Of a stretch of DNA of 20,209 nucleotides, positions 3,156 to 19,977 are shown in pieces (position 1 is the first letter of the stretch; every line of letters starts with the position of its first letter). The stretch lies in IMG/VR virus record IMGVR_UViG_3300037117_000098, positions 1 to 20,209 of that record. One strand, given 5' to 3'. The position numbers were made by a program, and so were the translations under genes. The DNA is from a virus. Below the pieces are notes generated by a model that saw only the letters and a list, made by a program, of their open reading frames with translations, was not told the DNA's origin and did no database searches.

Positions 3156-3464
3156 CTAGTAATAAACAGAAACGCCAGTAGCCGTGGTGCCTGCGGCGTA
3201 AATCTTCTTCACCGCGATGTCGAACTTGCCGACGGGCAGCGGGATGACAACGCCAATCGCGCCACCAGAGCCGCCAACACCTAAAAAGTCGACCTTGACG
3301 TTGCCCGCGCCGTTGATTGAAAACGCGCGAGCGAAGTTCTGCTTCTTGCCGACCGCAGGCGTCCAATCGCCACCGGGGGGAGCGCCGCTTACGGACACGG
3401 CTTCGATGTCGTACATCTGCGGCGTCATCGACGCCGGATTAGCAATGTTCGGTCCGGTAGACAT
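3156..3464 (-). CDS. Spike-base-like virion protein, copy B of a tandem pair
   Basis: Encodes 102 residues. Together with the gene before it, this is a clear tandem duplicate: both have 'STGPNI..P.SMTPQMYD' at the N-terminus, a 'FARAF...GAG.VK.D.LGVGG' core and a 'GTTATG(V/I)' end. The core and the ending resemble the spike base protein family of the Rhodobacter gene transfer agent (Rcc01079 type), which has an 'ARA...GGAG' strand and a terminal 'GTTATGIVALY'-like strand. That suggests a beta-rich virion surface or spike-base subunit. The ATG overlaps the previous stop (TGATG). The family link is by recalled pattern and moderate; a generic minor structural protein is the alternative. Confidence 0.72.
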   Translation of the reverse strand: MSTGPNIANPASMTPQMYDIEAVSVSGAPPGGDWTPAVGKKQNFARAFSINGAGNVKVDFLGVGGSGGAIGVVIPLPVGKFDIAVKKIYAAGTTATGVSVYY

Positions 3465-3799
3465 CAGTAAAACGCCGTGATGCCGGTTGCGGTGGTGCCG
3501 TGCGCGCCGGAGTAGATCTTGACTACCGCGATCTCGAACTTGCCTGCGGGAAGGGGGATGAGTACTGCGGTCGCGCCGCCTGCACCACCCACGCCCAGCA
3601 AGTCGGCCTTCACGATGCCAGCACCGTCGAGCGTGAACGCCCGTGCGAATCCCTTACCGGATAGCGTGGGTGCCCAATCGGCGGCCGGAGCAGAGCCGTG
3701 CGCGGATACGACTTCGCCGTCGTACATCTGCGGCGTCATCGACTGCGGGTCGGAGATGTTGGGTCCGGTGGATCCGCCGACAGATGTTTGTGTAGACAT
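3464..3799 (-). CDS. Spike-base-like virion protein, copy A of a tandem pair
   Basis: Encodes 111 residues. It is the upstream copy of the duplicated pair: MSTQTSVGGSTGPNISDPQ, then SMTPQMYDGEVVS, KGFARAFTLDGAGIVKADLL and a final GTTATGITAFY. Compared with copy B it has about eight extra residues at the N-terminus and a small insertion (SGAH) before the last strand. The same strand pattern suggests a spike-base or decoration role. Its ATG overlaps the TAA of the gp36-type gene (TAATG), and its own TGA overlaps the start of copy B, so the three are likely translated as a coupled set. Duplicate copies may form a hetero-oligomer or sit at different virion positions; this is inference. Confidence 0.72.
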   Translation of the reverse strand: MSTQTSVGGSTGPNISDPQSMTPQMYDGEVVSAHGSAPAADWAPTLSGKGFARAFTLDGAGIVKADLLGVGGAGGATAVLIPLPAGKFEIAVVKIYSGAHGTTATGITAFY

Positions 3800-4807: not shown

Positions 4808-6097
4808 TCACTGTACGCAATTGGTGATTAACCCGCCCAAAATCGGGCCGGTGAGGACTTCGGCATCGTTGTGAAGCACGACCACGACACGCCCACCGCG
4901 ACCGCCACGGCGAGGATCGTAGTAGCTGCGGACCATGAAGCCACCGGTGGCCGTACCATCGGGGGCCGAAGCGCCAGTCCACCGGAAGGTGTACCCGGAC
5001 GCGTTCTCACGACCGTTCGAGGGCGGGTTCTGCGAAGGCTCGTGCAGAAGCACGACGCTCGACGCACTGCCGGCAGCGCTCGGCCACACGTAGGTGGGCG
5101 AACCCGCAGCGTTCGTGTACTTCATCTCCGCGACGATGATCGGAGGCAACTCGAGAATGCGCGAGAGCTCCTGCGCGTTCGGGAGAGCCGGATCATTGGT
5201 CTTCGCGTAGTGGTACGCGCGGACCGCCTGGTTGCGCTGCAGCGCGTGGAAGACCGGTCCGCCCATGACGATGCGGCTGATCTTCTGGTAGCTGCGCTCT
5301 TCGATGAAGTGGATGTTCGCGATGGGGTCGGTAGACGCCCCGCCGTTCCACTGCTGACCCGCCACGAGCGCGAGCACGTTGTTCGCGTTCCAGTTGCCGC
5401 TCGTGGTGAGAAGCGACGCCACGCGCATTTCGCGCGCCATGCGAAGCTTCGTGAGGACCATGTCCACCGCCGCCTGGTAGGGGGCGAGGGGGGCGTCCGT
5501 GTTCGCCTCGATCTCCGTCGGGACGTAGGACGCGAGAGCGTACTCAGCCGCCGAGAAGAGCGTGTTGGAGATAGCAGGGCTGATCTCGTTCGGAGCGCCG
5601 CCTGCTGCACCCATGTTCACGGCAACGGGCTTGAACGCGTTGTCGCTGTTCCAGGTGAAGAACTTGTCGCTCTGCTTGGCCGAGGGCACGACCGGGAGAG
5701 CGATGTCAGCGACGCCGTCTTCCAGGTGGTAGCCGAGGGCCACGTTCGGCATCGCCGAGGGGATGTGGACGTCGCCGATGGCGAGATCCCCCATGCAGAC
5801 GGTATCGCCCCGACGGCCGCCGCTCTTGAGCTGCAGCTTCTTGCCGAGCGCCTTGCCGCGCTTGGCCACGTCGCCACTGGCAGCGTGGAAGGACAGTGCC
5901 GCGTCGAGCTGCACCGGATCCCGCATGCCCAAAGAAGCGAGCACGTCGTCGTCCGAGTAATGGTCCGTACCGCGAGACTCGAGGGTCCGCTCGTACTTTC
6001 CATTCATGTCGTACAGCCGGCCAGTCTCGTAGTCGAGACGGCCGATGTTGTTACCTGCCGTATCAGACAGCAGAGCGAGGTCTTTGGCGACGGTCAT
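4808..6097 (-). CDS. Major capsid protein
   Basis: Encodes 429 residues; the ATG follows AAGGAA at proper spacing. Several stretches are characteristic of phage major capsid proteins: 'LTKLRMAREMRVASLL' near 215-230 with 'TSGNWNANN' after it, 'STDPIANIHFIEE' near 255-267, and 'ISRIVMGGPVFHALQRN' near 273-289, the last being the usual strand-helix that places the capsid loop. It ends with 'SYYDPRRGG' and a final strand. Mature capsids assemble from hundreds of copies in an HK97-type fold. Residues 102-135 contain 'DLAIGDVHIPSAM' and 'ALGY', nearly repeated at the N-terminus of the protease gene (see findings). The first 100 residues, with 'RGKALGKKLQLKSGGRRG', may be a processed N-terminal extension. 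The neighbours are the decoration gene and the scaffold/protease, as expected. Confidence 0.88.
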   Translation of the reverse strand: MTVAKDLALLSDTAGNNIGRLDYETGRLYDMNGKYERTLESRGTDHYSDDDVLASLGMRDPVQLDAALSFHAASGDVAKRGKALGKKLQLKSGGRRGDTVCMGDLAIGDVHIPSAMPNVALGYHLEDGVADIALPVVPSAKQSDKFFTWNSDNAFKPVAVNMGAAGGAPNEISPAISNTLFSAAEYALASYVPTEIEANTDAPLAPYQAAVDMVLTKLRMAREMRVASLLTTSGNWNANNVLALVAGQQWNGGASTDPIANIHFIEERSYQKISRIVMGGPVFHALQRNQAVRAYHYAKTNDPALPNAQELSRILELPPIIVAEMKYTNAAGSPTYVWPSAAGSASSVVLLHEPSQNPPSNGRENASGYTFRWTGASAPDGTATGGFMVRSYYDPRRGGRGGRVVVVLHNDAEVLTGPILGGLITNCVQ

Positions 6098-6148
6098 TGT
6101 GAGTTCCTTCTTTTGGAATCTGGTCGGGTTGGGCGGCGATGCGGCGGA

Positions 6149-6583
6149 TTAGCCAGTTGCGCCGATGTTGATTTGGACGAGGACGAGATCCGTGCTGGCA
6201 GCAGTTGCCGTCCACGCGACGCCAAGAACGGGGTGACCTGTGGGGTTCGTCTTGACCGTTCCGCCAGTATCCGGCGCAACGACCGCACCGGCAGCGATAG
6301 CTCCGGATGCCACGCAGTAGATGAAGCCGCCGATCTGCATCACGCCCTGAGCCTTCGAGGGTGTGTCGGAAATCGTGACGCCGCAGGGGTAGTCGTTAGC
6401 ACCCGCCTCGAGCACCGCCAGACCAACCGCGCCAGGCGTCGCAGCGAACTGCGTAGCGGGATCGTTGGTCGCATCGATCTTCACGACCGAGTTGGCAGGG
6501 ATGTCCGTGACCTGGAGATTGAGGATGGAAATCTCCAGTTTCGGCTGGCGGGGGATGATCGTTCCGTCGAGAGTAGCAGTCAT
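6149..6583 (-). CDS. Capsid decoration (cement) protein, DUF2190-like
   Basis: Encodes 144 residues, starting MTATLDGTIIPRQPKLEISI. The sequence has repeated short strands, and the 'AGAVVAPDTGGTVKTNPTG' ... 'PVLGVAWTATAASTDLVLVQ' pattern corresponds to the 'GD-V-V ... G..-VG-A ... A-G-D-L-V-x-V' end of small head decoration or cement proteins (DUF2190 type) that stabilise expanded capsids from outside. The length of about 110-150 residues and the place between protease/scaffold and major capsid gene agree. A GGGAG Shine-Dalgarno precedes the ATG, and a small hairpin lies directly upstream. It is probably very highly expressed. Confidence 0.78.
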   Translation of the reverse strand: MTATLDGTIIPRQPKLEISILNLQVTDIPANSVVKIDATNDPATQFAATPGAVGLAVLEAGANDYPCGVTISDTPSKAQGVMQIGGFIYCVASGAIAAGAVVAPDTGGTVKTNPTGHPVLGVAWTATAASTDLVLVQINIGATG

Positions 6584-6593
6584 GATTTTCTCC

Positions 6594-6607
6594 CGGGCTT
6601 ATGCCCG
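6594..6607 (-). promoter_or_regulatory. Hairpin just upstream of the decoration gene ribosome-binding site
   Basis: On the minus strand the leader reads CGGGCATAAGCCCG, a perfect 5-bp stem with a 4-nt loop that ends one base before the GGAG of the Shine-Dalgarno. No U-tract follows, so it is not a terminator. It could protect the mRNA 5' end after cleavage or modulate ribosome access; the function is inferred. Confidence 0.4.
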
Positions 6608-6649
6608 TATGTTCCTTGGGTGTAGCCCGAAAAGTTTGGTGAGTGGGTG

Positions 6650-8794
6650 TTACCGCTTGCCTGCGTGAAGCTTGAGCGCCTTGGTCATGGCATCCGCAGC
6701 AGACAGCGTCGGCTCGGACTTCATGAGGCGCGCTGCAGTATCCGAAGCGGACTCTCCCGCTTCAACGCCCGGAGGCGGGGGAACGGGCGGAGCGGCTGCG
6801 CCGGCGTCGGTGCTTCCGACGACGTCCTTGCCACCTCCGGTGAGGTCCTTCATGAGGTACTTCTTGACGCCACGGAGGACGGGGTAGACCTCGTCGAACG
6901 CCTTGCGGTCGGCCTTGGCCGCCACGAGCATAAGCGCCTTGTGCTTGTCGGTGAGCTTCTGGGAATCCTTGTGATCCTCGAACGCCGTCTCGACGCGAGC
7001 ATCGAGTTCGGCCTTGTCACGGGCCGCACCCTCTGCCTGCAGGGTGACGATCTGCGCCTCAGAAGCCGCGAGCTTCGACTGCTTCTCGTTGAGCTGCAGC
7101 GTGAGCGTGGCGACCTGCGCCTCCGCGGCCGTAAGCTTCGTGGTGACTTCCTTCATCGCGATTGACTCGGCCATAACGTCCTCTTTGCTCATCTTGGTCA
7201 CTTGCCCCTTGTCGTTCATCGTGTAGCCCGACGTGTCGAGGGCGGCGCTGCCAGAAGCGGCAGCACTACCGGACCCGACAATGGGGGCGTTCATTGCTGC
7301 GGAACCACCTTCTTCGATTCCAGACATCGGTGCGCTGCCAGACATCGGTGCGCTGCCGGACATCGGTGCGCTGCCGGAGAGGGGCGCCGAACCGGACAGA
7401 GCAGCCTTGTCGGACTCGATCGCCGTAGCGTTGTCGATCTGACGCTCTGCCCCGCCGCCCGACTCTTGACCGGGGTGCATCCGCGCCTCGTGCTCTGCAA
7501 TCGCGGCTTCGATCATCTCTTCCACCGCGTCGAGCATGTCGTCGACATGCATCGTCATCGGAGCGCCGAGCTCCTCACGCATGCGGTCGCAGTAGCCGCT
7601 CATGTCCACGCCAGAGGACATGCCGTTCTGGTCCTGCGCCTTGTGCATCTCGCGCATCGCCCGAGCGCGCTCGAGGCACTCGTGCGGCGTAGTAGCTTCG
7701 GGCATTCCTAGGCACGCCCGAATCTTGGGCATGAACTCGTGGGAGCTGGCGGCGAATCCACTCATGTTGATGGACCTTCTAGGGGTGCGGAGGGTTGTGC
7801 CGGCGGCTGCGACGATATCCTTCGCTGCCAAAGGCTGGAGGCCCCTGAGGAAGGGCTGGTTGGTCAAGGCAACGCTAGTGAGCCGCGCGCCGATCTGCTT
7901 GCCCGAAACGGGGTGACGAGCGCCGAAGCGAATCGCCGGAGAAACGAACTTGTACTTCTTCTCGCGAATGTACGTCTTCGCGGGCTCGAGCCACTCAACG
8001 AGAGCGTGTAGGCCGTCGGGCTGAACCTTCAGCTCCTTGATCCAGGCCTGCGCCGGAGCGCCCGTGACCGGGATGCTGCCGGAGGTCGCGTCGCCCTCGG
8101 ACGCATGTTCGAAGTCGAAACTGACGTGTTTACCGTCGATCTCGCTATAGTTGCGGACGATGTCACCGAGGGTCGTGTCGTCGAGTGAGAACTCGCCGGC
8201 TCCATGTCCCTTGAAACTGCCTCGAGTAGAGATCTGGTTCCAGACCGGACCGTCGCCATCCGCAGCACCGGCTGAGAACTCAAGCACCTGACGAAGTTCG
8301 TCGGTGCCATCCTTCATGTGCCGGATTTCGAACTTGCCGTGCTCCGGATGATCGTACGTGATCGTCATCGCGGGCTTGCGATACGGACCGCGAGGCATAA
8401 CCGATACAGCATCGGGAGCCGCAGCTTCCGGCTTCACATAGCCGACAGGCATTACCGACACGACGTCGTCGCTGGCAGTGACCTCGACGCCGAACTTCTT
8501 ACCAGCGGCAGCGATGCGGCGGTGAATCTTCGCAGCCGTGGCCTTCGAGATGCGTCCGGCCTTCACTTCCTGAGCAAGACGCGCGGCAGCGTTTCTGACG
8601 TGGGAGGCGTCTGCGACCGGAAACTTCCTTTGCTCCGGCCAGGCAAACTGACTGTCCGGAAGAGCGTTGCGCTTCTTCGAGGGCAGATCCGCCATGGTAG
8701 CGTCGGTGTAACCGAGAACCGGCTTCTTCACAGCACCCGGCACGTGTACGTCGCCAACGGCGAGGTCCATCGCGACTGTCTGAGAATCGGCCAC
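6650..8794 (-). CDS. Prohead protease and scaffold fusion (Mu gpI-like)
   Basis: Encodes 714 residues from a GTG start with AGAGGCAGG upstream. Residues 9-38 repeat a segment of the major capsid protein (DLAVGDVHVPGA). Residues 45-104 hold a small domain often found in phage proteases (ALPDSQFAWPEQRKFPVAD ... HVRNAAARLAQ). Residues about 185-325 are the protease domain: 'DDTTLGDIVRNY', 'VSFDFEHASEG' with His230, 'APAQAWIKELKVQPDGLHAL', 'YKFVSPAIRFG' and 'LTSVALTNQPFLRGL' with Ser307. This is the Mu-like gpI protease (assemblin-type clan); His230 and Ser307 are the likely catalytic pair by family analogy. The C-terminal half has acidic helices, a six-residue repeat (about 467-491), a coiled coil (about 550-600) and a basic tail, as in scaffolds. 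In Mu a separate scaffold (Z) comes from inside the same gene; Met344 or Met526 could serve here. Confidence 0.87.
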   Translation of the reverse strand: MADSQTVAMDLAVGDVHVPGAVKKPVLGYTDATMADLPSKKRNALPDSQFAWPEQRKFPVADASHVRNAAARLAQEVKAGRISKATAAKIHRRIAAAGKKFGVEVTASDDVVSVMPVGYVKPEAAAPDAVSVMPRGPYRKPAMTITYDHPEHGKFEIRHMKDGTDELRQVLEFSAGAADGDGPVWNQISTRGSFKGHGAGEFSLDDTTLGDIVRNYSEIDGKHVSFDFEHASEGDATSGSIPVTGAPAQAWIKELKVQPDGLHALVEWLEPAKTYIREKKYKFVSPAIRFGARHPVSGKQIGARLTSVALTNQPFLRGLQPLAAKDIVAAAGTTLRTPRRSINMSGFAASSHEFMPKIRACLGMPEATTPHECLERARAMREMHKAQDQNGMSSGVDMSGYCDRMREELGAPMTMHVDDMLDAVEEMIEAAIAEHEARMHPGQESGGGAERQIDNATAIESDKAALSGSAPLSGSAPMSGSAPMSGSAPMSGIEEGGSAAMNAPIVGSGSAAASGSAALDTSGYTMNDKGQVTKMSKEDVMAESIAMKEVTTKLTAAEAQVATLTLQLNEKQSKLAASEAQIVTLQAEGAARDKAELDARVETAFEDHKDSQKLTDKHKALMLVAAKADRKAFDEVYPVLRGVKKYLMKDLTGGGKDVVGSTDAGAAAPPVPPPPGVEAGESASDTAARLMKSEPTLSAADAMTKALKLHAGKR
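7323..7394 (-). repeat. 18-bp tandem repeat encoding SGSAPM units
   Basis: Three exact or near-exact 18-bp copies (7323-7340, 7341-7358, 7359-7376; unit gacatcggtgcgctgccg on the plus strand, one base different in the first) are followed by a degenerate fourth copy. In the scaffold reading frame they encode S-G-S-A-P-M repeated, with SGSAPL first. Related SGSAA units continue nearby. This is a low-complexity linker in the protease/scaffold protein, prone to slippage. Confidence 0.85.
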
Positions 8795-9540: not shown

Positions 9541-11361
9541 TTATTCCCTGTGTCCTTCGAGCCACTGCGTGGCATCAACAAGTGCTGCTTCCAATGCAGG
9601 ATCCCCAGAAAAACTCTCTGTTGGATGGGCCTTGAGAGTGGCGAGCAGATCCTGAAGCTTCTTTTTCGCTTGTGCTACTGAGGCTCCCGGGGGACCTGAC
9701 GCGCCACCAAAAGCCGGTTTCGCTGCTGCTTTGGACTTTGCGATCTCGAGCTTCGCTCCACCGAGCGTGCCGGCACCGGGCTTCGGTGTCAGCGAAGGAT
9801 CTATCTCAGCGGGTGCCGTAACGTCGAGCGGGAGCATCCTTCTGTATTCGGACTCGCTAGACTTCGGAACAACAGGAAGACCGATTTCCTCCGCGATGCG
9901 ATCTGCGTCAACAGGAACGTTTCGATCTGCTGCTTCCGTAGCCATCTTCAGAATGGCGTGCGGATCTTCGTCTTCAACGTGGATCTTCATCACCGGAACA
10001 AGATGCTCCGCATCCGCGTGATTCAGTAGCGTGAGCGGCGTGAGAAGCTGCTCGCGCAATGCCTCGGACATCGTGTCGGCGAAGAACGAGAACACGTTCT
10101 TCTCTTCGGTAGCGTGAACCTCTCCGAGAGCGCGGTTACCACCGTGGGCTCCGACGTTCGTGGTGAGCGTGCTGCCGAGCGTGCCCTTCGACTCCTCCTC
10201 GTTGCAGACTTCGAGAAGCTTGTCGAACGTGATCTTGTTGTTGCGTGCCTCGGGCGTGTTGAGCACGAGCTTGAGGCTGTCGGCGTGTGTGAAGCTCGCG
10301 AGCGTCCCGCTGGCGATGGCCGCCGCTGCTGACTCGCCGGCGCTGATATCCTGCTCGGTTGCCTCGCGCGGCTTCATGCCGCCTTCTGCATCCGGATCCG
10401 CGGTGTTGTACGTGATCTCGGGAATCGGCTTCGAAAACTGCTCGAGGTACCGAAGTGCGTTTCTAGCAGAGGCGCGCTTGATCAGCGCCCACTCTGCTAC
10501 GAGTCGGCCGGAGCCTTCACGAGTAGCGTAATCGCCAGAAATCTGGGGGGCGTAGACGATGAACTTGTAAGGCCAGTCCGCGACGCGGAGGCCGAACATG
10601 TTCGAGTTCGTCGGGCTCTGTCCGTAAGGTTCCGTGCCGGCAACCTGGCCCTGGTCCCAGATGAACATGTCCCACGAGTTGCTGTCGGGGAACGAGATAC
10701 GACGGCTGTGGATGAACCCGAGCCGAGTAACTAGCCAGGACCCGTCTGTGTCCTGTGAGTAGTGGTTTTCAACCGCGCCGACGCCGTAGTACGAACCGAA
10801 GCCAAGAGCATAGATGCTCTGCTTGAAGTTGTGGATGCGGGTGAGACGGTACGCGATGTCGAGCGCAATTTCCTTCGCCCGATCTGTATCCTTGTGACCC
10901 TTCGGCAACTTCGCAGGCGTGAGTTCCATCCGGCCGTTCATGATGGCCAGAATCGGCTTGCGGACAACCGCGAAGAGGTGCGGGTCTCTTTCGAGGATCT
11001 CCCGGAGGAGATCGACGTATTGCATGCGGTAGCCCACGAGGGCCAACCGCTGCACCGCAGAAAGATAGGCGAAGGTAAGGCCGCTTCCGATTATAATCGG
11101 GTAGCGATCGATCAGCGGACGGGGAGCTAGTGCGTCCTTCGTGTTCCCCTGAGAAACAACCTCGGGAACAACAGGAGCAGCAGAACCAAAGTTCTTCTTC
11201 GGGGGCCCATACGCCCTGCGGGCAGGCGCCTCTCCGGGGTAGATGCCTGCGATGTTCTGGTCCGCCCGGACGCTCTTCCCCTCGAAGGCGCTACCGATGG
11301 AGAACTTGCTGTTGGCTTTTACAGCCGACGCCTTGCGCGGCTTGTTGATCCGCTTGGGCAT
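9541..11361 (-). CDS. Portal protein (DUF935, Mu gp29-like)
   Basis: Encodes 606 residues. I choose the ATG at 11361 because GGAG lies seven bases upstream; the GTG at 11367 is only one base after that site. After a basic, flexible N-terminus the domain begins near 'YVDLLREILERDPHLFAVVRKP', typical of DUF935 portals ('L-L-x-x-m-x-e-x-D-p-h-l-x-a-v-l-x-x-R'). Further family features are 'ALGFGSYYGVGAVE', 'RLGFIHSRRISFP', 'WALIKRASARNALRYLEQFSKPIPE' and the late 'ALGEVHATEEKNVFSFFAD', close to the 'Q-A-x-x-V-H-x-d-v' element. Twelve copies form the portal ring through which DNA passes. The last 100 residues are Ala/Pro-rich and helical. It heads the virion operon, after a candidate promoter, and no terminase gene stands before it. 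Confidence 0.88.
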   Translation of the reverse strand: MPKRINKPRKASAVKANSKFSIGSAFEGKSVRADQNIAGIYPGEAPARRAYGPPKKNFGSAAPVVPEVVSQGNTKDALAPRPLIDRYPIIIGSGLTFAYLSAVQRLALVGYRMQYVDLLREILERDPHLFAVVRKPILAIMNGRMELTPAKLPKGHKDTDRAKEIALDIAYRLTRIHNFKQSIYALGFGSYYGVGAVENHYSQDTDGSWLVTRLGFIHSRRISFPDSNSWDMFIWDQGQVAGTEPYGQSPTNSNMFGLRVADWPYKFIVYAPQISGDYATREGSGRLVAEWALIKRASARNALRYLEQFSKPIPEITYNTADPDAEGGMKPREATEQDISAGESAAAAIASGTLASFTHADSLKLVLNTPEARNNKITFDKLLEVCNEEESKGTLGSTLTTNVGAHGGNRALGEVHATEEKNVFSFFADTMSEALREQLLTPLTLLNHADAEHLVPVMKIHVEDEDPHAILKMATEAADRNVPVDADRIAEEIGLPVVPKSSESEYRRMLPLDVTAPAEIDPSLTPKPGAGTLGGAKLEIAKSKAAAKPAFGGASGPPGASVAQAKKKLQDLLATLKAHPTESFSGDPALEAALVDATQWLEGHRE

Positions 11362-11465
11362 CGGCACACTCCAGGGGCGCCGTTTGCTATTTCGCTGCGG
11401 CGGTCCTCTTTGGTTTAGAGGGTGCGACGCCGCAGCGGCGAGGATGCAGGCGCCGCTCCCTATGT

Positions 11466-11810: not shown

Positions 11811-12025
11811 GGCTTCTCCTTCGCCTGATCGAGTAACCCCGTCCTATCGAGCCATTTCCAACTGCGCAAAACGAAACCGTCCCGCCTGCGCGGAGGCTTC
11901 GTCAACGCGTCGTGCGGTCGCCAGCCGAGCAGCAGCCTGGCCCGGATGCAGACCTCGGGGATGCCGAGTTCGCGAGCCGCCGCGGAAACCTGCTCGTCTG
12001 TGGGCTGCTCTTCCACGCCGCTCAT
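11807..12025 (-). CDS. Small helix-turn-helix protein
   Basis: Encodes 72 residues. I use the ATG at 12025, which overlaps the glycosyltransferase stop as ATGA; an upstream ATG at 12076 would extend it inside that gene. The central part reads 'QVSAAARELGIPEVCIRARLLLGW' (split here: about residues 10-33) followed by 'RPHDALTKPPRR'. The A-R-x-L-G-I-x-x-x-x-I-x-x-R-l-x-x-G-W-x-x-x-x-A-L-T-x-P-P pattern is a homeodomain-like helix-turn-helix seen in many short phage proteins. It may bind DNA, for example as a regulator or a small-terminase-like factor; the size is too short for a full small terminase. Confidence 0.72.
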   Translation of the reverse strand: MSGVEEQPTDEQVSAAARELGIPEVCIRARLLLGWRPHDALTKPPRRRDGFVLRSWKWLDRTGLLDQAKEKP

Positions 12026-13605
12026 CTCCGCCTCATCGCTGCCAGGGCCTCGCGTTCCGATTTGCATTGAATGCACTCACAACGATTCACAACAGCAGGG
12101 GAGGGATGCACCGGCACCTCTGGCAGCCCCGCCTTGGCCATCCCCACGAACGCTCGAAGCGCGTGGTTGCCAGGAAACTTCACCGCCCGGTCGTACAGTT
12201 TTGCCAGCAGGGGTCCAGGCATGCTGCGCATCGTATCCCGATCCTCTTCAAGCCGCTCGGCGGCATACAGCGAAGGATGTAGAAGACGAATCATCGCCCG
12301 CCACCACCGGTCCGCCCCGTTCTTCTGGTCCCAACGGAACAGGCTCTCGTCGTGGACTCGGTACTTGTAAAGGTACTCAGGGATCTGCGTGACCTTCAAC
12401 TTGTCGCCCACGGCGTCGAAGGCGTCCACCCACAGGCCCCAATCTTCGTACGAAATCTCGGGTCGGTAACCACCCACGAGCTCCCACAACTTCTTGGGGT
12501 ATAGCGCGATGGCCGGTAGGCAGTTCTGCTCAAGAAGCCCCTCCCACGGCGCTAGATTCCACACGTTGCTCGATGCGCCGAACTCCTGCACTCGACAAGA
12601 GGCAATGGCGAACTCTTCGTTCTCCACGTGCGGTAGTGTCTTCTCAATGAACTGCGGATGAACAATGTCGTCGGCGTCCGGACCGGACAGAATGAACCGC
12701 CCTCGCGCTGCAGCGATGCCGATGTTCCTAGCATCAGACAGGCCGCGGGGCGGAGCTTCGATAACCCGGATACGTCCATCTGCCTCAAACTTCCTAGCCA
12801 CATCGGCGGAGGCGGCGTCCCCGCATACAACGATGATCTCCGTATCGCGGAAAGTCTGAGCACACGCACTGGCGATGGATTCGTACAGGTACTTAGCTTG
12901 GCCATACGCGGGGATGATGATCGACACGGTGGGAACAGGGCCGTCGTAGGGCTCCGGCTCGGGGGCTTGCTTCCACTCGGGCGGATCCGTCCACCGGCCG
13001 TTCTCATCGCGCTTCACGCCCTGCGTGCCGGTCCAGTGGTGGATTCCGTATACAGGGGAGTCTCCCGGAGCTAGCTGACCGCCGTAATGCCACGGGCAGA
13101 ACGTGCGACCCGGATGCACTTTCAACTCTGGATGCAGCTTCGCCAGTCGGGTGATGACGCCAGGGCCGAGTTCGAACACGGCCTGCTTGGTCATGTCTAG
13201 CTTCGGAATCTCCTCGACGATGCGCTTGAAGAAAGCTGACCTAGGCCTCGAGCCGAGCACGCAGGAAGCAATCCAGCCGGGTGGTGCGGAGACCTCGTTT
13301 TCCCAAGAGGCGAAGCACTCGGCTGACAAGAAGGAATCCGGAATGCGCTGAACGCACTCCATGTCAGTGTCCAAATGGATCCCGCCGACATCGTACAGAT
13401 CCCAAAAACGGGCGAGATCTGATTTGCCATTCAACTCCCGCATCGCATCCCACTGCTCAGGATATGGAAATCCGGTCGCATCCCGTCGGATGCGGAACTC
13501 GTAGTCCGGATGGAACTTGCGCCAGGTATCGAGAAGAGCCGTCGGCATCGGCTTAGCACAATTTGAAGACGTAAACCACTGAATGTGGAAGATCCTGGGT
13601 ATCAC
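12022..13605 (-). CDS. Two-domain glycosyltransferase (GT32-like plus GT2)
   Basis: Encodes 527 residues from a GTG start, with GGAGG upstream, overlapping the preceding gene as GTGA. Residues 1-195 resemble the GT32/OCH1-type sugar transferases: 'IPRIFHIQWF', 'SDLARFWDLYDVGGIHLD' and the DTD metal site at 79-81. Residues 226-430 form a GT2 (GT-A) domain: 'VSIIIPAYGQAKYLYESI', 'GLSDARNIGIAAARGRFIL', 'PDADD' at 309-313 as the DxD-type site, and 'SYEDWGLWVDAF' with the ED pair expected for the catalytic base. A C-terminal extension ends in CECIQC, a cysteine cluster that may bind zinc. Both domains are complete, so the enzyme could add two different sugars in turn. With three methyltransferases next to it, it probably builds a methylated glycan on virion proteins or host surface; the acceptor is unknown. 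Confidence 0.88.
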   Translation of the reverse strand: MIPRIFHIQWFTSSNCAKPMPTALLDTWRKFHPDYEFRIRRDATGFPYPEQWDAMRELNGKSDLARFWDLYDVGGIHLDTDMECVQRIPDSFLSAECFASWENEVSAPPGWIASCVLGSRPRSAFFKRIVEEIPKLDMTKQAVFELGPGVITRLAKLHPELKVHPGRTFCPWHYGGQLAPGDSPVYGIHHWTGTQGVKRDENGRWTDPPEWKQAPEPEPYDGPVPTVSIIIPAYGQAKYLYESIASACAQTFRDTEIIVVCGDAASADVARKFEADGRIRVIEAPPRGLSDARNIGIAAARGRFILSGPDADDIVHPQFIEKTLPHVENEEFAIASCRVQEFGASSNVWNLAPWEGLLEQNCLPAIALYPKKLWELVGGYRPEISYEDWGLWVDAFDAVGDKLKVTQIPEYLYKYRVHDESLFRWDQKNGADRWWRAMIRLLHPSLYAAERLEEDRDTMRSMPGPLLAKLYDRAVKFPGNHALRAFVGMAKAGLPEVPVHPSPAVVNRCECIQCKSEREALAAMRRR

Positions 13606-14192
13606 AGCTTCACCCCCTCCATCGTCATCGTCTCAAGCTGAAAAAAGCCATCTGGCATACGACCCACTGGCTCAAGGTTGCACAACTCGGGAGTGTCTGA
13701 CTTGCCCACCGAGTATCGACGAACACCTGAGAAGCCTGCAGAGATCATTGCCGCCTCAAGAGTAACCGCGTCATAGATGAACTGATGGCCCCAGGCCCTC
13801 ATGAAACGGTTCACGACGTGACATCGACTCGGATAGGGTATCTCAGAAGACGGAGACTGGTGGTACTGATACATCACGTACTCACGCATCTGAGAAGGTC
13901 CCAAATTGCCCTCGACGAGCCTCGCCAGGAACAACAGGTCTGGCGTGGAGATGCGGATGCGGCCTCGCGGCTTCAAGACGCGAAAGCACGTAGCCAGCAT
14001 CTTCTCGCCGTCCTCGAACGTCATGTGTTCGATGAGGTGGGACGCGAAGACGAAAGACGCACACCCATCCTCGAACTTCGCGAGCGTGCGTGCGTCGTCT
14101 ACGACGACGTGCGACGCATGGGCGCAGAGATCCACGTCGACCCATTGTCGATCGTGCAAGAAGTCGTCATCGCAGCCGAGGTTCAGTTTCAA
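13602..14192 (-). CDS. SAM-dependent methyltransferase (Methyltransf_11-like)
   Basis: Encodes 196 residues from a TTG start at 14192, giving (M)KLNLGCDDDF at the very N-terminus, the usual opening of this family; AAGAGG lies a few bases upstream. The reading frame is open to 14252, but that would overlap the previous gene deeply. Motif I is 'LNLGC', the acidic residue of strand 2 is in 'WVDVDL', and the post-motifs are 'ASHLIEHMTFEDGEKML' and 'RVLKPRGRIRISTPD', the classical 'L-x-P-G-G' turn with Arg for Gly. Related enzymes methylate sugars or small molecules during polysaccharide and antibiotic synthesis. It overlaps neighbours at both ends by 4 nt. Confidence 0.85.
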   Translation of the reverse strand: MKLNLGCDDDFLHDRQWVDVDLCAHASHVVVDDARTLAKFEDGCASFVFASHLIEHMTFEDGEKMLATCFRVLKPRGRIRISTPDLLFLARLVEGNLGPSQMREYVMYQYHQSPSSEIPYPSRCHVVNRFMRAWGHQFIYDAVTLEAAMISAGFSGVRRYSVGKSDTPELCNLEPVGRMPDGFFQLETMTMEGVKL

Positions 14193-14779
14193 GTCACCCT
14201 CTTGAACACAAACAAGCTCTGCTTGAACCACCAGCAGCTTTGTGTGATGCACGCACGCGCTTTACGGGTAGCCTCCGCATCGATCTCGAAGCCTCGACGA
14301 AAGATGCGCGGTAAAACTTCGTATGCGTCGAGTTCGTTCACGTGACCGTCGCCGCCCTGCCCGCGCACGGCCCAGGACATGACAAGGAAGCAGCCCAACC
14401 CCACCGCGCCGGTTACGTTATCAAGCATGACGTCCTCGAAGAACGCAGGCACGTGCTCCGCCACCTCTAGAAACAGTACGTTGCCCCGCCTTTCGAATGC
14501 GAACGGCTTGGTGAGATCTTGCCAGAGGTACTTGCTCCAATCGAGCACGCTGTTCTCCGGCGGATCTTTCTCGATACCGATCAGTTGCTTGAATCCCCTC
14601 GGTTCGAGGGCTGCCAAATAATGTCCTAGGCCGCAACCAAAATCGTAAACGGGTGCGTCTTCCTGCCCTCGGAGCAGGTCCCCGATAAACGACGCCAACT
14701 GTGGCGACCACGAATGGTGCTCCCACGCGCTGGCGCCGCCCCAAGCCCCTGTAGTGCCTATAACAGGCCCAGTACTCAT
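14189..14779 (-). CDS. SAM-dependent methyltransferase, class I
   Basis: Encodes 196 residues. The ATG at 14779 overlaps the preceding stop (ATGA); the frame is open to 14797. Motif I is 'VYDFGCGLGHYLAALEP' near residues 44-60, with strand 2 'LIGIEKDPP' carrying the acidic SAM-ribose ligand. 'GNVLFLEVAEHVPAFFE' provides the strand-4 'E-V-x-E-H' element common to the UbiE/Methyltransf_23 type. The C-terminal part is hydrophobic with a Cys/Trp/Phe cluster near 'ACITQSCWWFKQSLFVFKR'. Substrate unknown. As with its neighbours, a role in methylating a sugar or a virion glycan is inferred from the adjacent glycosyltransferase. Confidence 0.85.
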   Translation of the reverse strand: MSTGPVIGTTGAWGGASAWEHHSWSPQLASFIGDLLRGQEDAPVYDFGCGLGHYLAALEPRGFKQLIGIEKDPPENSVLDWSKYLWQDLTKPFAFERRGNVLFLEVAEHVPAFFEDVMLDNVTGAVGLGCFLVMSWAVRGQGGDGHVNELDAYEVLPRIFRRGFEIDAEATRKARACITQSCWWFKQSLFVFKRVT

Positions 14780-15354
14780 CTCACTCGCCACGACCACACG
14801 CTATCCCGAATCTCGAGTTCGTCCTGCCGGAATGCCTCGTTCACCGCCTCAGTAACCCCGGGAGCGGCGCCGTAGTCGTGCCCGGAGATGATGCCCCCCA
14901 TTTTGATGGTCGGCAGCCACACTTGGATGTCATCTCGGACAAACGGCTCTTCGTGGTTGCCATCGATGAAAGCGGCGGCTACCTCCCTCCGTCCGAACAT
15001 CTTCGCAGCGCGCACGGAGATCGTTCGCACCGGGTGAATCAGAGCTCGCTCCTCCGGAGGTGCTGCAGCCAGATTGCTCAGAAGGTGGCCCCAATCATCG
15101 TGCAGACCATCCGGCTGACCCCACTTTCCGCCCTCGACACTGGGATCGATGCAGTACAGCTTCACAGCATGCTTGCCACGGGTGGCAAAGGCATGTGCCC
15201 AGTACCGGATCGAGCGACCGTGCCAAGACCCGACCTCCACGCACACAGACCCGTCCGGGAGCGCCTCCGCCAGATCGTCGTAGAACGGGAGGATGTCCTC
15301 GCTCCATCCCTGTATCTCGGGACAGTACGCGGCGGATTGTTCTTTCGTGATCAT
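14776..15354 (-). CDS. SAM-dependent methyltransferase (Methyltransf_24-like)
   Basis: Encodes 192 residues from the ATG at 15354, which overlaps the preceding stop as ATGA; a longer frame to 15408 is open but has no such support. The order is a helical cap (MITKEQSAAYCPEIQGW), motif I 'CVEVGSWHGRSIRYWAHA', a second strand 'KLYCIDPS', then 'VAAAFIDGNHEEPFVRDDI' and 'KMGGIISGHDYGAAPGV'. The 'F-I-D-G-x-H-x-x-x-x-v-x-x-D-i' and 'G-G-x-i-x-x-H-D' blocks are diagnostic of the Methyltransf_24 (cephalosporin hydroxylase/CmcI and sugar methylase) group, where Asp and His bind a metal. It is therefore likely a metal-dependent O-methyltransferase acting on a sugar hydroxyl. Confidence 0.87.
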   Translation of the reverse strand: MITKEQSAAYCPEIQGWSEDILPFYDDLAEALPDGSVCVEVGSWHGRSIRYWAHAFATRGKHAVKLYCIDPSVEGGKWGQPDGLHDDWGHLLSNLAAAPPEERALIHPVRTISVRAAKMFGRREVAAAFIDGNHEEPFVRDDIQVWLPTIKMGGIISGHDYGAAPGVTEAVNEAFRQDELEIRDSVWSWRVR

Positions 15355-15626
15355 CGCATGATGTCCCGTCGAGGATCCCGATGTTGTCTGAGGATATTGC
15401 GCGTCCACTCCTCAGAAGAACCTCGCCTTTCACAGTGTTCTACCCATTCGTCGGTGCCCACCGCCGGCGCTGGCGGAGGGTATTCTGGACCCCGAAGGGT
15501 GCCATCGATGCGAGCATCCCGCTTGGGCGGCTTAGGCGAGGAGGGCGCCTTTCCGCTACACACCGTCGACGGCTCCGGCGTAAGACAATCCTGCATGTCG
15601 AAAGACTTGTTGAGGTGTCTCTTCAT
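15351..15626 (-). CDS. Small Pro/Arg-rich protein, unknown
   Basis: Encodes 91 residues. The ATG overlaps the preceding TGA by 4 nt and the stop overlaps the next start in the same way, which is the best evidence that it is a gene. The sequence is mostly disordered: MKRHLNKSFDMQDCLTPEPS, a Pro-rich middle (PEYPPPAPAVGTDEW) and a basic end (RNILRQHRDPRRDIMR). No domain is recognised. It may be a linker protein or a translational relay in the chain of coupled genes. Confidence 0.62.
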   Translation of the reverse strand: MKRHLNKSFDMQDCLTPEPSTVCSGKAPSSPKPPKRDARIDGTLRGPEYPPPAPAVGTDEWVEHCERRGSSEEWTRNILRQHRDPRRDIMR

Positions 15627-15862
15627 ACCTTCCTCAGCATGATGGCACCTGTAGCAAGGTCAGCGTCGATCTTCCATCGGACCGTACCGGGCATCGGAGG
15701 CGAGGATACATTCGAGTACGCGCAAGTGAACGCCAAGTTCACCCCGGGGTACTCATCAAGATAGAGCGTCACGAGGCGATCTTTTTGCTTCGTCTCCAGA
15801 CGAGCGGTCACCTCGGCGATCATCTCTTCCGGCTTCACTTCCGGTCGCTGCCACTCACTCAC
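15623..15862 (-). CDS. Small protein, 79 residues, unknown
   Basis: Starts at GTG (15862), which overlaps the deformylase stop as GTGA. The frame stays open upstream to 16123, but that part is only the alternative frame of the deformylase gene. The product begins (M)SEWQRPEVKPEEMIAEVTA and continues with a helix (RLETKQKDRLVTLYLDEYPG), then 'NLAFTCAYSNVSS', a beta turn and the C-terminal 'GTVRWKIDADLATGAIMLRK'. It looks like a compact alpha/beta domain. Function unknown. Its spacing and overlap suggest co-translation with the deformylase. Confidence 0.7.
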   Translation of the reverse strand: MSEWQRPEVKPEEMIAEVTARLETKQKDRLVTLYLDEYPGVNLAFTCAYSNVSSPPMPGTVRWKIDADLATGAIMLRKV

Positions 15863-16533
15863 GACGCCCTCGCCCGTTTCTGCTGCGCCCTCTTCAGTTC
15901 CTTCATGAAGAAGTGCCGCTGCGTCGTGCCGAGTCGGTCTAGCATAGAGACCCCGTTGATGTGATCGACCTCGTGCGAGACACACCTCGCGGCCAGCCCG
16001 ATATACCGGAGCTTCCCGACATGACAGGGCATGATGTCCTCTCGGCCAATATCCGGGCACTCGACGTCTACATCCTCGAAGGAGGGTACAGATACCGACC
16101 CCGCGCCGAAGAAGGACAAACAAGCTTCAGGCCGCGACATCGGACCACCGCGCTTGGCTGTGATGATCGGGTTGATGAGCGCAACGAGATCGAGTTTCCA
16201 CGTCCCCTGCGCCTGATCCTGCCTAGCCCCCAATTCGGCCAACTGCGCAGGGTGCACCATTATGATCACCCTCTTCATCCATCCGGCCTGGTTTGCCGCT
16301 AGCCCGTAGCCCCCGTGCTTTGCCAGGGTGAACGCCAGACGGCGCACGTTATCGACGAAATCCTGCGTGAGCACTTCCTCAGGTGTCACCTCTTCACACG
16401 GCGTACGTAGCAGCTCGTGCGGCCACTGCAGTATCTTCAACGGTCCGGCAGAGAAGTCGGTTGGCAACGCCTTCGGTACCTCCGGCTTCGGCGGCGCTTC
16501 GTCGCCTACGACTACGTCTTCAACGTCGCTCAT
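15859..16533 (-). CDS. def: Peptide deformylase
   Basis: Encodes 224 residues from the ATG at 16533, which overlaps the preceding stop (ATGA). All three deformylase motifs are present: motif I 'GGYGLAANQ' at 74-82, motif II 'EACLS' at 136-140 (consensus E-G-C-L-S, Gly replaced by Ala) and motif III 'HEVDH' at 187-191. Cys138, His187 and His191 should hold the metal and Glu188 act as the catalytic base. It removes the formyl group from the N-terminal Met of nascent proteins in the cytoplasm. The first 30 residues form an acidic/Pro-rich extension; 'PLKILQWPHELLRTPCEEV' begins the true domain. The C-terminal helix is short and basic (KELKRAQQKRARAS). Phage deformylases are known, mainly from marine phages; helping translate abundant late proteins is a likely role. 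Confidence 0.93.
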   Translation of the reverse strand: MSDVEDVVVGDEAPPKPEVPKALPTDFSAGPLKILQWPHELLRTPCEEVTPEEVLTQDFVDNVRRLAFTLAKHGGYGLAANQAGWMKRVIIMVHPAQLAELGARQDQAQGTWKLDLVALINPIITAKRGGPMSRPEACLSFFGAGSVSVPSFEDVDVECPDIGREDIMPCHVGKLRYIGLAARCVSHEVDHINGVSMLDRLGTTQRHFFMKELKRAQQKRARAS

Positions 16534-17708
16534 CTGTCCGCACACTCCTCGCATCGTCTCACGTTCGACCCGACAGCATCCACGTAATGCCCGCAAGAAA
16601 GAAGCGCGAGACCGTTTCGATACCCCAGCACCTTGCGATTGAAGGACAGGGACCAGGCCCGTTTATTCCACGTCTTCGAGCGCTTCTCGACGGGAAGACT
16701 GCTCTTCGCCACAAGATACGCCTGACCCGCATCCACGAGCAACCTGTTGGCTTCCCTGCGCACGGTATCCGTCAACTCCCTCCGAGCATCTCGCCGCTGA
16801 CGACTCTCTTGGCTCTTCGTCTGAAGAAGATCGTACATCGCCTCGAGAGGCTCAACTTCGAGGCGGGATTCGGCGATGTGCCTCTTGACATCGGACGTAG
16901 TAAGTCCGGCACCCGCCAGTACGGAACGGTCGAAATGTCCGTAATGCGTGGTCTCTCGAAGCTGCTTGGTCATCTTCACTGCGTGCGTAAGCACCGTAGA
17001 TGTCATCAGGGCTAGTGGGGTCACGTCGCCGATGTCTCGGAAGTCGTCTAGCCACACGTGGGGCGGCACAGATGAGGCGGCCATAACTTGCTCCACCTCG
17101 TCACTCTTCGCCTTCGGATCAATTGGCGCATCCGCTCGCTCATCCTGACCGTACATCCTCGCCAGAACGACTGCGTGCTCCAACCATCCCCCGCAGGCGT
17201 ACCCGGGTTCGTCAGAGTGTCTCACCGTACAGGGCTTGTCTCGCCACTGCAACATCAGATTCAGGGCCGCACGCGCTTGCTTGACGGACCTGGCCATGTC
17301 GTTGGACCAGCACGCCCAGTGCTCCACGGGACTGTCCAGAAGCCTCTTGCTGGGCACTGACGCCTTGATGTGCATCCGTATCTCCCCGCCAGGAAGATTC
17401 GACGACAGCGTCTGAAAGTTGCCGTCCAGGGGGATGAGTTCGTTCGTGAACGCGCCCATCTGCGACAGGCGCATCTTCTCACACATGGCTCCAAATGAAC
17501 TGCCGAGGCCTACGTAGCCTTCGAGGTCTGCGAACAGGTACCGTAAAACCGATATCTCCGAAGGAGCCAGAGGTCTACGGGAGCGCTGCAGGGAGACGAC
17601 CCGCCCTGTATCGTCGCGAGCTCGCGCCAGTCCGAACGTCTGGGTACCCCCTAGTCGAGGGACGACACGTTTGACAGGCGGTTTCGAGGAGATCATCTGG
17701 AGGGTCAT
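16530..17708 (-). CDS. Unknown 392-residue protein with C-terminal zinc-finger-like motif
   Basis: Not recognised. The ATG at 17708 has only a weak purine stretch before it; Met5 is an alternative. The N-terminus is basic and unstructured (SKPPVKRVVPRLGG). The middle is largely helical and includes 'EISVLRYLFADLEGYVGLGS', 'ARAALNLMLQWRDKPCTVR' and a long charged helical stretch 'SQESRQRRDARRELTDTVRR'. The last 24 residues read SCGHYVDAVGSNVRRCEECA and end in DR; C-x-H ... C-x-x-C is a zinc-ribbon or treble-clef pattern. It may bind nucleic acid or act as a scaffold in a complex. Its stop overlaps the deformylase start, so it heads that operon. It is too small, and lacks Walker motifs, to be a large terminase. 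Confidence 0.75.
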   Translation of the reverse strand: MTLQMISSKPPVKRVVPRLGGTQTFGLARARDDTGRVVSLQRSRRPLAPSEISVLRYLFADLEGYVGLGSSFGAMCEKMRLSQMGAFTNELIPLDGNFQTLSSNLPGGEIRMHIKASVPSKRLLDSPVEHWACWSNDMARSVKQARAALNLMLQWRDKPCTVRHSDEPGYACGGWLEHAVVLARMYGQDERADAPIDPKAKSDEVEQVMAASSVPPHVWLDDFRDIGDVTPLALMTSTVLTHAVKMTKQLRETTHYGHFDRSVLAGAGLTTSDVKRHIAESRLEVEPLEAMYDLLQTKSQESRQRRDARRELTDTVRREANRLLVDAGQAYLVAKSSLPVEKRSKTWNKRAWSLSFNRKVLGYRNGLALLSCGHYVDAVGSNVRRCEECADR

Positions 17709-19346: not shown

Positions 19347-19880
19347 TTATGCAGACTGCAACTGCGTGATCCTGTCGGAGAGGTACGGTAGCCAAAGACT
19401 CGGCACACTGGCCGGCAGGAGCACCGGAGACGCCGACATCGGCAGCGACTTCGGCTTCACCGGCAACGACCGAAGCGTCATCCCCGCTTGCTTCAGGGAC
19501 TTGTGACCCTTCTTCAAGTTGCAGGGAATGCAACTAGCGACGACATTACACCAGTCTGTTTTACCGCCCTTCGATCTGGGGATCACATGATCGTAATTGA
19601 GACCTTTCGGTCCAGGTCGCTTGCCGCAGTATTGGCACTCGTAGTGATCTCTGGCGTAGAGATTGCTTCTTGAGAATTTCACATCGTTCCTCGAGTGCGC
19701 GAGGCGCTTCGTGAGACGCGCGACGCAGGGGAAGCGGATGGTGATGCTTGGGGAGCGGCACTCCTCTTCGTACTGCTCGAGGACGTCAAGCTCCCCTGTA
19801 TACTGCATCGAAACAGCTTTTTGCCACACAACCACTTGGTGCGGAAGCCAGGATGGAGTGAGAACTAAACAGGGAAACAT
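19347..19880 (-). CDS. HNH endonuclease inside the tRNA array
   Basis: Encodes 177 residues from the ATG at 19880, preceded by GAGG; the frame is open to 19928 but that would run into the Ile tRNA. The front 'CLVLTPSWLPHQVVVWQKAV' and 'SPSITIRFPCVARL' match the leader found in this HNH subgroup. The catalytic region at about 69-125 has 'FSRSNLYARDHYECQYCG' (C-x-x-C, residues 82-85), 'LNYDHVIPRSKGG' with the Asp-His pair at 97-98, 'DWCNVVASCIPCNLKKG' with the central Asn112 and the second C-x-x-C pair (117-120). These give the beta-beta-alpha-metal fold with a structural zinc. The C-terminus is Pro/Ser-rich. Enzymes like this are often free-standing homing endonucleases or host-takeover nucleases; the place between tRNA genes fits a homing element. 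Confidence 0.92.
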   Translation of the reverse strand: MFPCLVLTPSWLPHQVVVWQKAVSMQYTGELDVLEQYEEECRSPSITIRFPCVARLTKRLAHSRNDVKFSRSNLYARDHYECQYCGKRPGPKGLNYDHVIPRSKGGKTDWCNVVASCIPCNLKKGHKSLKQAGMTLRSLPVKPKSLPMSASPVLLPASVPSLWLPYLSDRITQLQSA

Positions 19881-19901
19881 GAGAAACCTCGCTGGTTGGG
19901 G

Positions 19902-19977
19902 TGGTGGGCGCACGTGGAATCGAACCACGATCTTCTGGTTATCAGCCGGAAATCTAGGACCACTAGACGATACGCCC
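19902..19977 (-). tRNA. tRNA-Ile(GAU), CCA encoded
   Basis: 76 nt including CCA. Acceptor GGGCGUA pairs with UGCGCCC, discriminator A. D stem GUCU/AGAU, anticodon arm UCCGG-CUGAUAA-CCAGA (one C-A mismatch) gives GAU with U33. T arm CGUGG-UUCGAUU-CCACG. It lies 21 bases upstream of the HNH start. Confidence 0.92.

Follow-up and report, generated by a model that had tools for sequence, protein, structure and literature searches.

The window analysed here is a stretch of 20,209 nucleotides of the virus record IMGVR_UViG_3300037117_000098 (positions 1-20,209), a phage fragment with a Mu-like head module on the minus strand, on which every window feature given below lies. Two proteins of this module share a short segment. 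One is the major capsid protein (MCP), encoded at 4808-6097 and 429 residues long, and the other is a protease-scaffold protein of 714 residues, encoded at 6650-8794 with a GTG start. In the MCP the segment comprises residues 99-123 (TVCMGDLAIGDVHIPSAMPNVALGY; 5729-5803), with the conserved core MGDLAIGDVHIPSAM at 5750-5794. In the protease it forms an N-terminal tag, residues 6-29 (TVAMDLAVGDVHVPGAVKKPVLGY; 8708-8779), that is matched both by BLASTP to the MCP and by a profile made from MCPs only, and whose conserved core is MDLAVGDVHVPGAV (8729-8770).

The shared segment and its two proteins

A gapped alignment of MCP residues 99-123 with protease residues 6-29 (TVAM-DLAVGDVHVPGAVKKPVLGY) contains 15 identities among 24 aligned residues, and BLASTP of the two proteins gives 39 bits with an E value of 2e-7. 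The Smith-Waterman score, 92, was reached in none of 1000 shuffles (maximum 72), and when all 23 coding sequences of the window were compared this was the top-scoring pair, two tandem paralogues excepted. A profile built from 12 MCP arms only and run over the 13,880 stop-to-stop open reading frames (ORFs) of the window and related contigs matched the window protease at E 1.7e-5; down to E of about 1 its matches, MCPs aside, were proteases and a capsid paralogue described below, and essentially nothing else. The shuffles and the profile scan reject chance similarity. The repetition of an MCP segment at the protease N terminus, first noticed in a preliminary description made from the sequence alone, is thereby confirmed, at coordinates that were correct to within a few bases.

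Two details of that description need qualification. A resemblance at the DNA level is present (48 of 72 nucleotides identical) and is no greater than the protein similarity predicts: codon usage alone would give 6.2 shared codons at the 15 identical residues, and 9 are observed (p about 0.10). As codon and DNA identity are at the expected level, there is no sign of recent DNA duplication, and this origin was rejected together with gene conversion. The extent of the shared segment can also be refined. A core of about 14 residues, [ML]DL[GA]xxDVHxPxxx, recurs in other phages, and the tail, "LGY...AD...LP", is MCP N-arm sequence echoed in a few proteases only, namely those of the window and of the related loci L081 and L086 (YAAGY) and L095 (AGY).

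The MCP matches the phrog_1005 major head protein family from residue 106 on (1.5e-42). Its AlphaFold model has an N-terminal extension (1-105), an N-arm (about 106-129), and an HK97-fold core; within the extension, residues 1-90 are predicted to form strands and a helix (61-84), and the linker at 91-105 is predicted to be flexible, with pLDDT below 50. The best solved Foldseek match to this model is 3bjq (1e-17), followed by lambda, HFTV1, and encapsulin shells, and many of the matches have the HK97 fold. Six residues of the segment region, Met-102, Asp-104, Leu-105, Asp-109, Val-110, and His-111, are invariant in 12 MCPs of the window clade. Because homologous MCPs that are without the first ~100 residues begin at this very segment (L106, MASPTASDVHIDAALSQISIAF; L117, MPSPTLHDVHVDSILSAISIAY; KPP23, MKPTPGDVHVNRPLSNVSVAY; RDJL Phi 1, MPFTQPSRSDVHVNRPLTNISIGY), sequence comparison places DVH in the N-arm of the phrog_1005 capsid family. 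The phrog_1005 MCPs of L106 and L117 start at SDVHID and HDVHVD, respectively, and have no extension, with only 2 and 6 codons open upstream.

In the protease, the tag is followed by a DUF6582 domain (residues 41-106; 8477-8674; PF20223, 7.5e-12; phrog_16160, 4.4e-19), a family for which no paper was found in the open-access literature. The catalytic domain matches PF10123 at residues 198-403 (4.9e-26) and the phrog_328 head maturation proteases (3.4e-30); the Mu-like gpI protease domain spans about 145-315 and has a conserved DFEHAS around 227-232. The C-terminal part consists of a disordered linker (443-534) and a coiled-coil, scaffold-like helix (537-608; pLDDT about 90). AlphaFold models DUF6582, the catalytic core, and the coiled coil with confidence. 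Since residues 1-32 are modelled as unstructured (pLDDT below 50 over 1-12 and 14-32), the tag is predicted to be a free linear peptide that is not docked in the active site. The gene order, with the protease between portal and MCP in the head module, fits a protease of the Mu gpI type. Of the neighbouring head genes, that for the portal protein lies upstream (9541-11367; PF06074 Portal_Mu, 2.1e-41), and that for a capsid cement/decoration protein lies between protease and MCP (6149-6583; PF09956 Phage_cement_2, 1.3e-7).

Several other features of the window may be recorded here. The disordered linker of the protease-scaffold protein is encoded by 18-base tandem repeats (7245-7397), giving a repeat of the SGSAPM type. 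Downstream of the capsid gene are two adjacent small paralogues (3156-3464 and 3464-3799; STGPN...MTPQMYD), a tandem duplication of a putative virion protein. Upstream of the portal gene, 12022-15408 holds one glycosyltransferase and three methyltransferase-like genes, perhaps for the modification of DNA, the virion, or the host surface. A phage-encoded peptide deformylase follows at 15859-16596 (PF01327, 3.3e-24), and an HNH endonuclease is found at the far end (19347-19928).

Distribution of the tag

Scans of viral contigs yielded about twenty related phages, described as phages of soil and water. A first scan of genome contigs confirmed nothing, and a second gave only four distant loci in metagenome-assembled genomes of Acidobacteriota. 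Of the clade's Mu-like proteases, 19 have a readable 5' end, and every one of them is tagged, with the consensus [ML]-D-L-[GA]-x-x-D-V-H-x-P, on catalytic cores that are about 40-80% identical; the proteases of L025, L087, L093, and L098, truncated where their contigs stop, stand outside this count. Examples are L026 (RLDLGVGDVHQPGAV), L027 (MARLDLGVGDVHQPGAL), L070 (LLDLGVADVHTPSTL), L071 (AMDLGPGDVHTPGSP), L094 (LMDLGVYDVHVPGAM), L081 (EMDLSVGDVHAPSSIGQYAAGYH), and L086 (VLDLVVSDVHMPGAMSGYAAGY). Among other, more distant Mu-like proteases none of 28 has it, and in a tree of the catalytic cores the untagged proteins are separate from the tagged ones, 17 of them as a nested clade and the other 11 as a deep outgroup. 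Named phages gave no match to a short query made from the tag. The preliminary description had proposed that related phages with the motif missing from one copy would speak against a shared segment; the proteases of distant phages are indeed without it, and in the window's own clade it is universal.

The position of the tag is variable. It lies at or near the N terminus in 14 of the 19 proteases and is internal in five, following DUF6582 in L029 and L088, a Nudix domain in L071 and L094, and a Cys-containing N-terminal region in L096; in every protease it is upstream of the catalytic domain. The possibility that it is a trait of the DUF6582 family was rejected, both by standalone DUF6582-like ORFs of Komagataeibacter and Tunturiibacter phages, which match only from about residue 25-34, and by tagged proteases that have no DUF6582 (L026, L027, L028, L033, and L070). 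The N-terminal part of these proteins is itself a site of domain insertion: a Nudix hydrolase domain is found there in L008 (1728-4289), L033, L071, L073, L086, and L094, and at a comparable place there is ChaB in L117 and DUF6582 in the window. It may be that enzymes are packaged together with the protease. In three loci the protease frame is split (L081:3648-6002, L091:557-2886, and L039:2792-4539), through sequencing error, pseudogene formation, or frameshifting.

Within whole records the motif is exclusive. In each of seven records (471 kb in total) a DNA pattern for DLxxxDVH has exactly two matches, one in the MCP and one in the protease, and these scans rejected a general tag for ejected proteins. 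Some relatives have a second capsid-fold protein with its own short N-terminal extension (L008:4289-5350 and L033:3025-4230), and the ORFs between protease and MCP in L070, L071, L073, and L081 are this paralogue also. It carries a variant of the tag in which His is replaced (DVVT, DVST, DVAT, or DVAQ). Absent from the window, it may be a vertex protein like gp24 of T4.

The tag also varies together with the MCP of the same phage. It shares on average 7.7 of 13 residues with its own MCP and 6.8 of 13 with the MCPs of other phages (permutation p 1.5e-4), and the residue before DVH is identical in 10 of 19 protease-MCP pairs against 4.1 expected. In L094 this residue is Tyr in both proteins, which is otherwise unseen. 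When own pairs are set against nearest-relative pairs, 37 comparisons are not tied, and the own pair scores higher in 25 of them (Wilcoxon p 0.004); these comparisons are not fully independent of one another.

Two proteases unrelated to the Mu-like family carry the tag as well, one of phrog_976 (L106) and one of the XkdF type, comprising Peptidase_S78_2 and ChaB (L117). That of L106 reads MVDLSDVHIPTAMGKGASV and continues with sequence at which the protease of the archaeal virus HFTV1 starts (MPFGEYSDFEDCV...). HFTV1, which has a different MCP, has no tag on its protease, and stop codons stand just upstream of the start. A match between L106 and HRTV-4 upstream of the annotated protease start was dismissed as a stretch without a start codon, which makes HFTV1, with its upstream stops, the cleaner comparison. 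The L117 protease begins ...TPTVSDVHQPSSMGQ, and the XkdF protease of Enterococcus phage EG-TP1, again with a different MCP, is untagged. Thus, the tag is absent from the relatives with other MCP families that were examined (HFTV1, HRTV-4, and EG-TP1), and the sole feature common to the three tagged protease types is a phrog_1005 MCP. The converse was rejected, in that phages with a phrog_1005 MCP do not all have the tag: it is absent in RDJL Phi 1, KPP23, Vibrio 1.046.O, Jenst, and Salgado. At the level of sequence the finding is firm, given how many phages are tagged, the presence of the tag on three protease families, and its match with the capsid.

Proposed docking by N-arm mimicry and its alternatives

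The similarity of the two segments, its conservation, exclusivity, and covariation, the predicted disorder, and the presence of the tag on three protease families are direct observations. We infer from them that the tag binds capsid subunits and that the protease is recruited as a result; as an explanation, a mimic of the capsid N-arm that docks protease and scaffold into the prohead is given a probability of roughly 0.55. Each MCP presumably rests its N-arm ([ML]DLxxxDVHx...) in a groove of the adjoining capsid subunits. With the key residues of the arm copied onto a flexible peptide, in most cases an N-terminal one, the protease-scaffold polyprotein could bind the inner face of the growing prohead in that groove or in one left free. 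This would let a limited number of protease-scaffold molecules enter while the shell is still open and the protease not yet active, their uptake relying on the same contacts by which capsid subunits hold one another. There is a precedent for a groove that can take an arm as well as a scaffold-borne element: in HK97 the N-arm of Prohead II has the place that belonged to the scaffold in Prohead I (PMC10275583). Of the explanations offered in the preliminary description, copying of the capsid by the protease is the best supported, through conservation in the clade, covariation, predicted flexibility, and the two further protease families, with the correction that the N-arm is copied and not a generic "surface patch."

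Several observations weigh against docking. The covariation of the tag with its own MCP is only partly corrected for shared ancestry: when tag similarity is regressed on core identity and extrapolated to an identity of 1, the value is 40.0, compared with a paired mean of 42.1. Distant Mu-like proteases that go with related MCPs have no tag, and most of about 110 phrog_1005 loci, many of them short or without a protease gene, are untagged, L106 and L117 being exceptions; the untagged proteases and the untagged phrog_1005 phages together mean that the tag is not generally required. Two proteases, those of L028 and L104, have DVATP and DVSTP in place of DVH and are nearer to the arm of the capsid paralogue than to that of the MCP; at the L028 locus no paralogue was seen. 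Finally, the position of the segment at the junction of MCP extension and core would suit a cleavage site as well.

That last point leads to the rival that survives best, although we regard it as rather unlikely, namely that the motif is a substrate site recognised and cut by the prohead protease. A cut would free a delta-like extension from the MCP, and likewise from the capsid paralogue, and in the protease it would amount to self-processing. The proteins that carry the motif are the usual substrates of a prohead protease, that is, MCP, capsid paralogue (compare T4 gp23/gp24), and the protease itself (PMC5694885). In the extended MCPs the segment follows a linker predicted to be flexible (91-105), and in five proteases it stands between an N-terminal domain and the catalytic domain. 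The maturation site envisaged in the preliminary description therefore agrees with the junction at which a delta-domain cut would fall in extended MCPs, but leaves unexplained the tagged proteases whose MCPs are unextended, those of L106 and L117. DVH is kept in these unextended MCPs, which need no cut, and those phages of the outgroup whose MCPs are extended have untagged proteases. Furthermore, several tags are only 2-5 residues from the protease N terminus (L027, MARLDLG; L106, MVDLS), where a cut would achieve little, and the model does not put the tag in the active site. By analogy with the capsid targeting sequence (CTS) of T4, targeting and processing could also share one peptide.

It is much less probable that N-arm and tag are both bound by a third head protein, such as the portal, cement, or another internal protein, which would gather shell and protease together. 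A motif on MCP, paralogue, and protease strictly requires just a common partner, which need not be the MCP. Against this, L106, L117, and the window clade differ in their proteases and have the MCP family as their shared feature, and no candidate for the partner was found. A shade more doubtful still is a pseudo-substrate role, in which the tag would fill the active site of its own protease until concentrated capsid N-arms displace it, tying activation to assembly. The tag does resemble the region expected beside the MCP cleavage site, and it is upstream of the catalytic domain in every case; but AlphaFold leaves residues 1-32 unplaced (pLDDT below 50), and the unrelated tagged families would need identical active-site specificity. 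That the tag is a functionless relic of a 5' part of the capsid gene once joined to the protease gene, or a chance likeness, is scarcely credible: the genes are near neighbours in the head module and 15 of 24 residues are identical, but the core is conserved in 19 of 19 proteases with catalytic cores about 40-80% identical, shifts in position, is exclusive within whole records, recurs on two other protease families, and shows no excess of codon identity or DNA similarity, all of which contradicts the duplication remnant that the preliminary description had considered.

To return to docking by N-arm mimicry, we put at even odds the broader proposal that proteases use such mimicry as a plug-in ticket, gained on at least three protease families, coevolving with the phage's own capsid protein, and swapped among domain architectures. 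If this is true, N-arm mimicry would be a general and portable way to load enzymes into HK97-fold shells. How proheads come to recruit their maturation proteases, and in limited numbers, is understood only in part; a short peptide that is recognisable from its sequence and corresponds to a capsid family opens the question to direct tests. It also recommends caution in reading sequence similarity between a protease and an MCP, which can mark an assembly contact.

Comparison with known systems

The preliminary description knew of no comparable case, and likewise no report of a prohead protease that bears a copy of the MCP N-arm was found in the open-access literature. The proteins themselves are of familiar kinds. 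With proteases of the Mu gpI type (PF10123, phrog_328) the window protein shares its catalytic family, its position between portal and MCP, and a scaffold-like coiled-coil C terminus. What it has beyond these is the capsid-arm tag at its N terminus and DUF6582, with Nudix domains added in relatives. The MCP resembles those of HK97 and D3 in having an N-terminal scaffold-like extension, a flexible junction, an N-arm, and an HK97 core (PMC10275583, PMC12749128). The HK97 protease is taken into Prohead I in about 60 copies, but the papers cited describe no N-arm copy on it (PMC10275583, PMC12749128).

A close parallel is the T4 CTS of the internal proteins IPI-III (Mullaney and Black), in which 10 residues are enough for packaging (PMC9026906). 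Like it, the tag is a short, usually N-terminal peptide on a protein internal to the prohead and would act as a modular address, being N-terminal in this manner in 14 of the 19 tagged Mu-like proteases as well as in L106 and L117. The propeptides of the T4 protease gp21 have been suggested as possible targeting signals of the CTS kind, and a 2022 review called gp21 self-cleavage a major gap (PMC9026906). The two differ in that the CTS has affinity for the scaffold core, whereas the tag copies the capsid protein's own N-arm, and in that the CTS occurs on several internal proteins and the tag only on protease, MCP, and capsid paralogue. Encapsulins offer a second parallel, in which short peptides load cargo into HK97-fold shells; these are usually C-terminal, with the family 1 consensus SDGSLGIGSLKRS, and are not copies of a shell segment (PMC8346489). 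No sequence match to a C-terminal peptide of the SDGSLGIGSLKRS type was found, the tag being N-terminal or internal and reading DLxxxDVHxP. Should the tag prove to bind the N-arm groove, phage shells would have a genetically encoded cargo tag, useful alongside the CTS of T4 and the peptides of the encapsulins.

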